A DNA stretch of 34,086 nt from Nostoc sp. B(2019) (GTDB lineage Bacteria > Cyanobacteriota > Cyanobacteriia > Cyanobacteriales > Nostocaceae), in NCBI RefSeq assembly GCF_010091925.1, contig NZ_WVID01000044.1, forward strand, positions 1-34,086. The letters run 5' to 3'. The notes under the pieces were generated by a model. That model made no database searches. It was not told the DNA's origin and saw nothing but the letters and a program-made list of their open reading frames with translations. Each line of letters starts with the position of its first letter. The first letter of the stretch is position 1. Both the position numbers and the translations under genes were made by a program. Positions 17,518 to 20,530 of the stretch are shown piece after piece.

Positions 17518-18087
17518 TTATTCAAAAACTACGTCTTCGTAAAGTGCTGCCATTGTTTCCTCAAAATCCACGCTGTTTAGTCGAAATGCTTTATGTTCTG
17601 ATGTGTAGGATTGTAAAACCCATAGCCCTTGATCATTGCGTCGAAAACATTCAACTCGTTGACGCTTTGTATTAATCAGTACATACTCCTGGAGACTTTC
17701 CAAAACCTGATAATCGGCGAATTTGTCGCCCCTGTCAAAGGCTTCAGTCGAATTAGATAAAACTTCGACAATTAAGCGAGGAAATCTTTTATAAGCTGGC
17801 GTTTCTTGGTCTCGTTGGTCGCAAGTAACCATAACATCGGGATAATAAAAGCGATTTAGAGATTCAATTCGTGCTTTCATATCAGCGATGTAAACACGAC
17901 ATCCAGAGCCGCGTACATGATTACGGAGGAGAGTAGCAAGGTTAAGAGCAATGGTGACATGTGCGTCAAGCGCTCCAGCCATTGCGTAGATATAACCGTC
18001 GATGTATTCATGTTTGACAGGGTTTTGTTCCTCTATTTGGAGGTACTCTTCAGGAGTAAGGTAGTTTTGCTGGGGCGAGGCTATCAT
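17518..18087 (-). CDS. Uma2 family (DUF820) putative endonuclease
   Basis: A 189-residue protein of the Uma2 family, hugely expanded in cyanobacteria. It has the PD-(D/E)XK-like fold: YLTPEEYLQIEEQNPVKHEY, then YYPDVMVTCD with the metal-binding Asp, FPRLIVEVLSNST with the Glu, and GDKFADYQVLESLQEYVLI. Biological role is not established; many copies are thought to be mobile or regulatory nucleases. The ATG at 18087 gives the usual family length. A 34-residue N-terminal extension up to 18189 looks unrelated and is rejected. It stands alone between lysC and a secreted protein gene. Confidence 0.88.
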   Translation of the reverse strand: MIASPQQNYLTPEEYLQIEEQNPVKHEYIDGYIYAMAGALDAHVTIALNLATLLRNHVRGSGCRVYIADMKARIESLNRFYYPDVMVTCDQRDQETPAYKRFPRLIVEVLSNSTEAFDRGDKFADYQVLESLQEYVLINTKRQRVECFRRNDQGLWVLQSYTSEHKAFRLNSVDFEETMAALYEDVVFE

Positions 18088-18285
18088 GGTTGAAACTTCA
18101 AAGCTTGAGTGATACTGATTTCTAGGGTAGCGTTTGCTGTTGATTGAAGTTGGTTTTTGAGTATTAATAAAATCCAACAAAAAAGACAAAAGAGATTATT
18201 TAGGCGAGCGATGTCTCCGACGGGCTACGCCTACGCCTTTACAACACCATCATTCAATAGTAGAAGAAATTATAAAACAATTTAA

Positions 18286-18341: not shown

Positions 18342-18731
18342 TTATCTGCTTACCCTTGCAGGTTCAACCCACTCATTCCAAGAACTATCGTAGCCATCAT
18401 AAGTAATTTTATAAAGATTTTTCCTAACTTCTAAAACTCGCCCTTGATACCATTTACCCTTCCACAAAATTCTTACTGAATCTCCCGTTTTAAATGATGC
18501 TCTAAAACGTGCAGTTTTAATCCATTCATTCCAAGAACTATCATAACCATCGTAGGTAACATAGCACTTGTTATCATTAACATTAAGTACCGTTGCTGGA
18601 TACCATTTTCCCTTCCAAAGAACCTCAGCTTTTTGTCCCACAGAACATGGTGAAGCAGCAAAAGCGCTGGGAATTGATGTTCCTAACCAGGTTGCCATGA
18701 AAATGCCAGCAAACAATAATTTCTTTTTCAT
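18342..18731 (-). CDS. Secreted protein with two Tudor/agenet-like repeats
   Basis: A 129-residue protein with a clear signal peptide: MKKKLLFAGIFMATW, a hydrophobic core and an AFA cleavage site at residue 25. The mature part is two ~50-residue repeats, about 31-74 and 81-125. Each has LWKGKWY, then a VL-x-V strand, then TYDGYDSSWNEW and AR. The WYxAxV and YDGYDSSW-EW pattern resembles Tudor-knot/agenet/chromo-barrel domains, which in eukaryotes bind modified peptides. The partner of an exported bacterial version is unknown. The repeats are similar at DNA level with 153-bp spacing, indicating tandem duplication. An AAGGAT ribosome site precedes the ATG. No operon partner. Confidence 0.82.
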   Translation of the reverse strand: MKKKLLFAGIFMATWLGTSIPSAFAASPCSVGQKAEVLWKGKWYPATVLNVNDNKCYVTYDGYDSSWNEWIKTARFRASFKTGDSVRILWKGKWYQGRVLEVRKNLYKITYDGYDSSWNEWVEPARVSR

Positions 18732-19077
18732 TATTTTTTATCCTTAATCGGGAAAACCAAATTTTAATGATGATTAATGGAAATCTAATTCAAAATTTGC
18801 CACTAACTGTCACTATTTTTATGGATTTAAATTAGCGATCGCCTCAGCAAAAATCACGAAATTACAGCGCAATATGTGAAGATAGCGCTAATTTATTACG
18901 TATTTAATTTCAACAGTAGTTTTTAATATTACTTAGAGGATGACTGAAATATAGCGGTGATTAAAAAGTTTAATTTCACAATTTATTAATAATTCGTTAG
19001 CGATCACAACTATTATTTTATGGTACAATTGTACTATAAAAGATATTTAGCTTGACCTTTATCTGGAGGGTGGCAAT
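18732..19077. other. 346-bp intergenic region between divergent genes
   Basis: AT-rich. It contains a HIP1 octamer at 18836-18843 and, at its right end, the LexA-like box, a putative -10 and a GGAGGG ribosome site of the 463-residue gene. No other gene is seen. Confidence 0.6.
19022..19035 (+). promoter_or_regulatory. LexA (SOS) box
   Basis: GGTACAATTGTACT fits, at every position, the cyanobacterial LexA consensus RGTACNNNDGTWCB as I recall it for Anabaena. Its core GTACAATTGTAC is a perfect 12-bp palindrome. It touches a TATAAA -10-like hexamer (19035-19040), so a bound repressor would block RNA polymerase. It lies 42 bp before the start codon of the 463-residue gene. Confidence 0.7.
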
Positions 19078-20469
19078 ATGACAAATAATCAAATATCTCT
19101 GCTAGAACTTATCGAAATTTTTGCAGAATATCGCAACAATATTATCGTCAATATTAAACACCTACAAGAACATTATCAAAGAACAAGTATCAAGCGAGTT
19201 AAAGGTGTTAGAAACCAAAACGGCGAACTCATCCAGCCTTGGCTGCGAACAGAACATACAGATAATGCCGAATATGTTGGCATGGGTGAGTTTGAGTTTA
19301 ATCGCAACACTGCTACTATCAATATGCTTGTTAAACGTAAAGTCAAACTTGCCAAAGTTGAAGACCAAACCCCCATTCTTGAGGTTGCAGGTCTGCTAGT
19401 AAATGACCTAGATACCTTTAATAATTACACGATTGTAAGTGACGGGAAAATCAACGTACAGTCCTTACAAGTGAAAATTAGTAGTAAAAAAGCTTTTGAA
19501 TTACTCAAACAAAAAGGTGTATTAGATGCAGAGGAATTCGACTTCCGTGTTGAATATACTATCAAACTAGATAAGTTGCCCCTTGTTCCTTTTGATAGAC
19601 ACTATAGCGATATTAATGGCTTGTTTGATCAGCTAGCAGAAATTAAAGTACTTTCTAGTATTATTTCTGCTCACTTAAAAGGAGAGTCAGATGTATTTAT
19701 ACCAGCACAATTGGATGAGTTAAAAAATCATTATGTTTCTAATAACGTTTACATCAACTTCCCTACAACCAACGAATACACTGACATCACAGAAGCTCTT
19801 GCTAATGGTACTCTTGATTCACGAGTAAGTTATAAAATCGACATCGGTAGTCAAGATATTCTCAACCTCAGCAAGTTGCATTCTGCTAACAAGTTTTTAA
19901 ACAAGATGTATAGGGTTTATGACCAAGAAACTGGGGAGATTTTCGCTAAGCCGAGTTTTCATGTAGCGTTCAATCAAAATCTTGGCTTTAGGCACAAGCT
20001 ACTATCGTCCCGCATCAAGTTAACTAAAGTTGATGAGTTCATGAAACGAATTTTTGATGACTTTCTGGGACTTGAAAAGAATGGGATTGTTGCAGATATT
20101 CTCGTGAAAGCTGGTGCTGAGAGTTTGGCGCAATTATTGCAAGATAAACAAGCTGATAAGCAGATTAGCAAAGAGGAAATGATTGCAGCCTTGACAACGG
20201 CGAATACTAAGCTAGAGCAATATGCAGATAAAATTTACCGGGATAAAATTTGTCCTTTGGTATTCTACATTGGCTCTACTGGATTGTTGCCGGATGAAAT
20301 GGCAGTGAAAGCTATGGCTGCTGAAGAAATGGCTGCCAAATACCCCAATTTACAGTTTTCTAAAGATGAAAAAAAGGGGACATTTTTTGTAGTGGCCGAT
20401 AGTATTATCAGCGTGTATGCAAAGACTGAGTATTACAGTAAAAAGATTGCTGTTAGTTTGAAAGAATAA
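19078..20469 (+). CDS. Hypothetical protein behind a LexA box
   Basis: A 463-residue protein I do not recognise. It is predicted cytosolic, rich in charged residues and mixed alpha/beta, with no signal peptide, membrane segment, P-loop or clear nuclease motif. Visible landmarks are ELIEIFAEYRNNIIVNIKHL at the N terminus, an AEYVGMGEFEFNRNTATINM strand segment, and a helical region with EEMIAALTTANTKLEQYADK. Near the C terminus are LVFYIGSTGLLPDEMAVKAM and SIISVYAKTEYYSKK. The ATG has GGAGGG 7 nt upstream. The unit is monocistronic: its own promoter carries a LexA box and a strong terminator follows 20 nt after the stop. Induction by DNA damage is inferred from the box. Confidence 0.85.
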   Translation: MTNNQISLLELIEIFAEYRNNIIVNIKHLQEHYQRTSIKRVKGVRNQNGELIQPWLRTEHTDNAEYVGMGEFEFNRNTATINMLVKRKVKLAKVEDQTPILEVAGLLVNDLDTFNNYTIVSDGKINVQSLQVKISSKKAFELLKQKGVLDAEEFDFRVEYTIKLDKLPLVPFDRHYSDINGLFDQLAEIKVLSSIISAHLKGESDVFIPAQLDELKNHYVSNNVYINFPTTNEYTDITEALANGTLDSRVSYKIDIGSQDILNLSKLHSANKFLNKMYRVYDQETGEIFAKPSFHVAFNQNLGFRHKLLSSRIKLTKVDEFMKRIFDDFLGLEKNGIVADILVKAGAESLAQLLQDKQADKQISKEEMIAALTTANTKLEQYADKIYRDKICPLVFYIGSTGLLPDEMAVKAMAAEEMAAKYPNLQFSKDEKKGTFFVVADSIISVYAKTEYYSKKIAVSLKE

Positions 20470-20488: not shown

Positions 20489-20530
20489 AAATGCAAAAGT
20501 GCCAAGTCTACCTTGGCACTTTTGCATTTT
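20489..20530 (+). terminator. Rho-independent terminator
   Basis: A perfect 18-bp stem with 5-nt loop: left arm AAATGCAAAAGTGCCAAG at 20489-20506, right arm at 20512-20529. The T-rich distal arm merges into TTTTATATTT. It ends the 463-residue gene. The near-symmetry means it may also stop antisense transcription. Confidence 0.85.

Follow-up and report, generated by a model that had tools for sequence, protein, structure and literature searches.

What is the gene at 19078-20469 of this stretch of Nostoc sp. B(2019) DNA (34,086 nucleotides, analysed whole and called the window below), and what switches it on? A sequence-only reading had placed it beneath a perfect LexA box and, recognizing no family for its product, had suggested an undescribed DNA-damage response protein. 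The answer we favour, and hold to be probable, is that the gene is a member of the LexA (SOS) regulon in one family of filamentous cyanobacteria and that it encodes the C-terminal module (C-module) of a VWA protein family shared with phages. A DNA-damage function of the product is likely but unproven.

The gene and its signals

Both the reading frame (463 aa) and the box GGTACAATTGTACT were present as claimed. The locus is laid out as follows:

19009..19014, + strand: -35 slot, which reads ACTATT (degenerate); placed by the geometry of relatives, many of which have TTGACA
19022..19035, no strand assigned: putative LexA-type operator GGTACAATTGTACT; from the consensus match and conservation in relatives
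19032..19037, + strand: -10 hexamer TACTAT, overlapping the right half of the operator; inferred from the relatives' TTGACA-17 nt-TACTAT
19065..19069, + strand: ribosome-binding site GGAGG, 8 nt before the ATG; from the sequence
19078..20469, + strand: gene with ATG start; its 463-aa product is a C-terminal module of the VWA/C-module family (kin of PHROG 2426) standing by itself
20489..20529, + strand: intrinsic terminator, an 18-bp stem followed by a T-rich tail; from the computed fold

The ribosome site and the terminator proposed earlier both held, the latter with a folding energy of -28.4 kcal/mol (z -7.7). The claim that the gene has its own promoter stood in part: the geometry of relatives supplies the -10, but the -35 slot is poor, and a promoter scan of the window did not include the gene's promoter among the 8 sites that it found (7.9 expected). 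The box had also been said to abut the -10; the contact is closer than that, TACTAT overlapping the right end of the box. At the gathering threshold of Rfam the window gave no match.

As had been claimed, GGTACAATTGTACT fits at every position the LexA consensus given for Nostoc PCC 7120, RGTACNNNDGTWCB (PMC3091678). This consensus occurs at a single place in the window, the palindrome being read on both strands (shuffle mean 0.19; 4 of 100 shuffles reach two matches). A narrower pattern, RGTACNNNDGTACYATA, which was picked after the box had been seen, is found at two places in the 7.43-Mb genome, the window box and C11:75333, against one match for the reversed control.

The genome contains one LexA match, with an AG cleavage site, GDSM and a later Lys in the expected context (the Lys by eye), and AGTACTAATGTTCT lies upstream of this lexA. 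From its sequence the repressor is of the cleavable type. The locus thus resembles the Nostocales LexA/SOS regulon (lexA, recA, uvrA, ssb and others) in that its operator fits the published consensus and overlaps the promoter, and in that a cleavable-type LexA is present. It differs in that the product is no known repair protein and that control is here predicted from sequence.

A VWA-less branch of a phage-shared family

The earlier impression that the product has no known family was borne out by NCBIfam, PADLOC and Pfam, a sub-threshold HR1 match (E 0.039) aside, but not by the phage families, where the protein reads as a shortened relative of PHROG 2426. It is better described as the VWA-less branch of a phage-shared family, with a C-terminal fold that found no match in the PDB, than as unknown.

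Homologues fall into three length classes of ~460, 600-660 and 820-960 aa, the longest carrying an N-terminal VWA module with a DRSGSM metal motif. Set against a full form of ~840 aa, with the VWA part as its N-terminal half, the window protein corresponds to the C-terminal half; a VWA domain with the MIDAS motif DxSxS is present in full-length relatives and absent from the window protein. A homologue was present in 70 of the 150 genomes searched, its own genome counted, so the gene does not count as core SOS. When the phylum was sampled evenly, 34 of 292 genomes had one, all of the window's order. We examined 73 loci (68 of the 70, three from Planctomycetes, one phage locus and L113, a duplicate of L024) and kept 70 rows once the duplicate, a fragment and a stop-bearing copy had been taken out. 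A quick tree unites 55 of these rows, every one of them from the window's GTDB family, in a single group with SH-aLRT support of 100; the 15 outside it comprise 11 other cyanobacteria, three Planctomycetes and the phage.

Short, partial and full forms number 31, 8 and 31 among the 70 rows and 29, 6 and 20 within the family. The presence or absence of VWA changes eight times on the quick tree, an approximate count because of open forks. Loss is the likelier direction, since 11 of the 15 outside rows are full, and the VWA half has apparently been lost repeatedly, the window's lineage included. The family's VWA half used as a query found no match in the window's genome. Across 195 genomes of the order no VWA half was seen as a separate gene split from its C-module, each of the 27 matches lying in a frame of at least 611 codons. 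The phrog_2426 profile also matched three other places in the own genome (two on C17, one on C61; E 1e-14 to 6e-5, in the VWA part), which we read as other VWA proteins.

Full VWA/C-module forms occur in Planctomycetes, in a 485-kb phage and on further IMG/VR contigs. The window protein itself matches PHROG 2426 weakly (E 1.9e-6, residues 63-170, about 110 of 736 positions); one full-length cyanobacterial protein reaches E 1.1e-26 (best stretch residues 60-436) and a full-length planctomycete protein E 3.1e-30, each covering about half of the profile. A protein of phage AR9 and one from the Ackermannviridae are full-length members of PHROG 2426, and the AR9 protein as query matched 499 of 50,697 phage records at E 1e-4. 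When a full-length profile of 18 rows (12 cyanobacterial, three planctomycete and three from phage contigs) was aligned by hhalign with three Ackermannviridae proteins, the alignment reached into the C-module (probability 99.2, E 1.6e-19, 470 columns); the C-module profile alone gave a probability of 82.6. Among viral contigs the window protein as query matched none, alignment queries retrieved four and five loci and the phage protein two, in overlapping sets. PHROG 2426, found in Ackermannviridae and PBS1/AR9-like phages and by tblastn in other large phages, shares with the full-length family its order of VWA followed by C-module. The phage forms compared are 713-823 aa long and possess VWA, whereas the window protein consists of the C-module only, and the last part of that module is tied to the phage proteins by fold only (A0A7S5RAC6). 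In phages with the full-length protein, a protein resembling a caspase-type peptidase (by eye) lies about 1 to 6 kb upstream (L123:5235-6083, L127:37-870, L126:5072-5878).

AlphaFold models the window protein with a mean pLDDT of 89.8 and a pTM of 0.86. For the short form Foldseek, suggested earlier as a check, found nothing in the PDB with an E of 0.001 or lower and matched two viral models at that level: A0A7S5RAC6 (BFVD; E 1e-14, TM 0.50, rmsd 8.4) and a Bacillus phage SP-15 protein (E 4.6e-11, TM about 0.5). The best PDB matches, coronavirus spikes at E 0.12 and a TM of about 0.1, were set aside as noise, and a profile search of PDB sequences gave no match for the C-module. In the model of a full-length relative (pLDDT 81) the VWA half resembles ArnA-ArnB 8s05 (E 8e-12, TM by target 0.49), VWA2 5a8j and other VWA structures, and the VWA-bearing rows keep DRSGSM. 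This likeness to VWA domains of the ArnB or Sec23-24 type is one of fold only, with a TM by target of about 0.5, and concerns a half that the window gene lacks. Saccharolobus ArnB is described as having a part in DNA-damage regulation (PMC10470591).

An alignment of 28 C-module sequences, three of them from phage contigs, has invariant positions that include Y33, R35, K39, R45, N75, N82, K266, N271, D319 and E431. No His or Cys is invariant and only one Asp and one Glu are, which favours a role in binding or assembly over catalysis; the shared basic and polar residues are scattered. The C-module is therefore most likely a non-enzymatic binding or assembly module. In the complete form of the family an ArnB/Sec23-like VWA is coupled to this C-module, whose fold found no PDB match, and the VWA may serve as a metal-dependent regulatory handle that several lineages, the window's among them, have dropped.

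Kinship with phages can also be taken to mean that the gene is phage-derived and has been retained for defence or cell sacrifice under SOS control: LexA would be inactivated by damage or by a phage, and the product would hinder phage assembly or kill the cell. The relatives in large phages and the patchy presence of the gene would suit such a role, as would the vWA protein reported in purified LIMEstone1 virions (ORF108, 81 kDa, six peptides, 11.44% coverage; PMC3296691), which from its size and phage group probably belongs to this family. Against it, a VWA protein was retrieved once in another Vi01-like phage (PMC10892097), PADLOC, which covers known anti-phage proteins, matched neither the window protein nor one full form nor one phage protein, and no phage genes appeared among seven neighbours scanned with Pfam. 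We consider this role unlikely. No homologue was matched on plasmids.

Conservation of the operator

LexA control predicts that orthologues keep the box, and within the family nearly all do. When 650 nt of upstream sequence were compared with RGTACNNNNGTACY, 22 of the 73 loci had an exact best match (0.1 expected from shuffles) and 52 had one with at most one mismatch (2.6 expected). Set on the tree, a box with at most one mismatch is present in 51 of the 55 family rows and in none of the 15 outside, against a chance level in the family rows of 2.2 on average and 7 of 55 at most over 40 shuffle rounds. At two mismatches a further two family rows are added, together with 5 of the 15 outside rows, a number not above chance. 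The family rows L082 and L119 have no box within two mismatches, though both genomes have LexA. Such counts overstate the number of events because the tree rows are not independent. The simplest history would have the family's common ancestor acquire the operator once.

The expectation that the box would also keep its distance from the gene failed, since the distance to the start codon spans 35-609 nt (median 228, 51 rows) and the 42 nt of the window is confined to its genus. What stays constant in many relatives is the position of the box relative to the promoter, while the distance to the ATG varies. Among the 32 long leaders between box and start codon, the largest similarity cluster contains 11.

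The relatives' promoter reads TTGACA-N7-AGTACN4GTACTATA, that is, a -35 element, a 17-nt spacer and the -10 TACTAT, with the operator lying over the spacer's last part and the -10. The complete pattern of TTGACA, 17 nt and TACTAT with the box inside occurs in 11 of the 55 family rows; of the 51 box-bearing rows, ATA follows the box in 43, and a -35 with at most one mismatch stands at exactly this spacing in 30. Across 60 family genomes there are 7 exact sites, all at homologues of the window gene, and 11 sites with one mismatch, 10 of them at homologues (sites were assigned by coordinates, and 13 of the 17 were also read directly). At up to two mismatches 55 matches were listed, against three for the reversed control. 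Because the pattern was taken from these same promoters, the counts show its rarity elsewhere and are no independent discovery; a degenerate -35 slot keeps the window's own promoter out of the list. A related palindrome was seen in the promoter TTGACACTTTTGTAGTATTTATGTAGTATA, which recurs at C44:9777-9806 (L208) of the own genome and in several relatives and may stand ahead of a tRNA gene.

The repressor was searched for in 23 genomes, 12 from the family and 11 others. All 12 family genomes have a clear LexA. Among the 11 others it is clear in four, absent in five and weak in two, the weak matches (E 6.5e-5 and 4.1e-4, over the cut-off and in frames of more than 1000 codons) not being counted. 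The AG site and GDSM are present in all 17 LexA genes read (16 from the 23 genomes and the window's own), and RGTACN4GTWCY stands ahead of lexA exactly in 15 and with one mismatch in two. The four outside genomes with LexA have a box before lexA and none within one mismatch before the homologue of the window gene, so the operator of this gene looks like a family trait.

These four genomes could be cited for the view that the palindrome serves another repressor, one whose GTAC-N4-GTAC operator resembles that of LexA, which would put the gene outside the SOS regulon. So could the endings of the sites: GTACT is the usual one at this gene, GTTCT the usual one in the lexA boxes of the same genomes. 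Both endings, however, are covered by the published consensus (RGTACNNNDGTWCB; AGTACWNWTGTACT), and PMC3091678 gives AGTACTTATGTACT as the site of ssb in PCC 7120. The box is moreover absent before the gene in all 11 other cyanobacterial genomes, seven of which are without a clear LexA. A separate repressor is in our judgement improbable.

LexA control of the gene, by comparison of relatives, is well supported; from the sequences we infer LexA binding, induction by damage and the molecular function. As the box sits within the promoter, a bound repressor would cover the -10. LexA on 19022-19035 would keep the promoter shut, and DNA damage, through LexA self-cleavage, would allow transcription of this gene by itself, as far as the hairpin. 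Since a LexA-type box is kept in most close relatives and the protein is the surviving half of a phage-shared protein, the gene is a good candidate for an undescribed part of the damage response, and a strongly supported one for the poorly charted cyanobacterial SOS regulon. The titles, abstracts and some passages of the literature searched held nothing relevant on a cyanobacterial VWA protein under LexA; the survey PMC3091678 tabulates by locus tag.

A coiled-coil gene pair and the fate of the short forms

The sole other RGTACNNNDGTACYATA site in the genome precedes a gene at C11:75563-76543 for a 327-aa coiled-coil protein, which is followed by a paralogue (C11:75333-77607; L130, L166, L227). 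We found 36 orthologues of the first gene in 60 family genomes. Within 700 nt upstream, all 20 family orthologues checked have a box with at most one mismatch, exact in 11 (chance mean 0.8, maximum 4 of 20), and the five outside orthologues checked have none within one mismatch. At all 10 loci read, the two coiled-coil genes were tandem or near neighbours.

Across 59 family genomes, 28 have both the window gene and the pair, 10 the window gene alone, 7 the pair alone and 14 neither (one-sided Fisher p 0.003, kinship ignored). The pair is also present in all 11 outside genomes that carry the window-gene family, gene-bearing genomes being the only outside ones searched.

The first coiled-coil protein matches PHROG 29668, and its paralogue matches by tblastn gp268 of Bacillus phage G, a full-length member of that same PHROG. 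Aligned by hhalign with gp268, the first family scores 97.8, a type of score that coiled coils can inflate. Among INPHARED phages the first protein had no match and the second matched phage G; the family had no match among viral contigs. No VWA gene is annotated within 7 kb of gp268, where most genes are unnamed. Phage G gp265 has a similar length and was rejected, being an RNA-ligase-family protein without a match. Within gp264-gp268 (L226), gp268 stands near this gp265 and the polynucleotide-kinase-like gp264.

The window protein may work with the coiled-coil pair under a similar box. A bolder suggestion, which we offer tentatively and would not rate as the likelier outcome, is a LexA-run, two-part cellular module shared with giant phages, in which the VWA/C-module protein and the coiled-coil pair (PHROG 29668; kin of gp268) would take part in a damage-triggered assembly with a new-fold core; the VWA regulator would have been discarded repeatedly, and the C-module and its LexA promoter kept. 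With a second gene pair that has both a LexA-type box and kin in a giant phage, the two-component hypothesis becomes concrete enough to test. The window gene for its part would tie the SOS regulon to a protein family of unassigned function whose matches among phage records run into the hundreds, and its modelled fold, of high confidence, found no counterpart in the PDB. Being cellular, probably inducible, open to deletion and present in one copy in the window's genome, it offers a handle on the role of the phage protein.

It is very doubtful that the short forms are decaying remnants of VWA proteins with the box left over. Fragments or stop-bearing copies do exist (G002, G012, G018) and a search of the window's genome gave no VWA half, but the reading frames are complete, the box is present in 28 of the 31 short-form rows, and dN/dS is 0.13-0.21 in seven short-form pairs (four from one genus and not independent), like the 0.15 of one full-form pair. 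By this measure the short forms are under purifying selection. Less credible still is a Ku-like DNA-end binding protein under SOS control, which, Ku consisting of a VWA plus a barrel, would share with the family the general layout only (VWA then a beta-rich module, beneath a damage switch), the Pfam Ku family being absent at E up to 1 and no Ku chain appearing among the 50 matches listed for either the short or the full-length model.

Fragments or stop-bearing copies of the window-gene family were noted at L026 / L120, G012 and L115, one of them in the window's own genus.

Gene context gives no pointer to DNA repair, since no neighbour family is common to more than 12 of 71 loci in relatives. 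Next to the gene in the window, on the - strand at 18342-18731, lies a gene for a small protein with two Agenet/Tudor-like stretches and an apparent signal peptide (by eye, from a relative); Agenet/Tudor-like domains are usual in eukaryotic chromatin proteins. Also on the - strand, 17518-18189 encodes a putative endonuclease of the Uma2 family (Pfam PF05685, E 2.8e-42).
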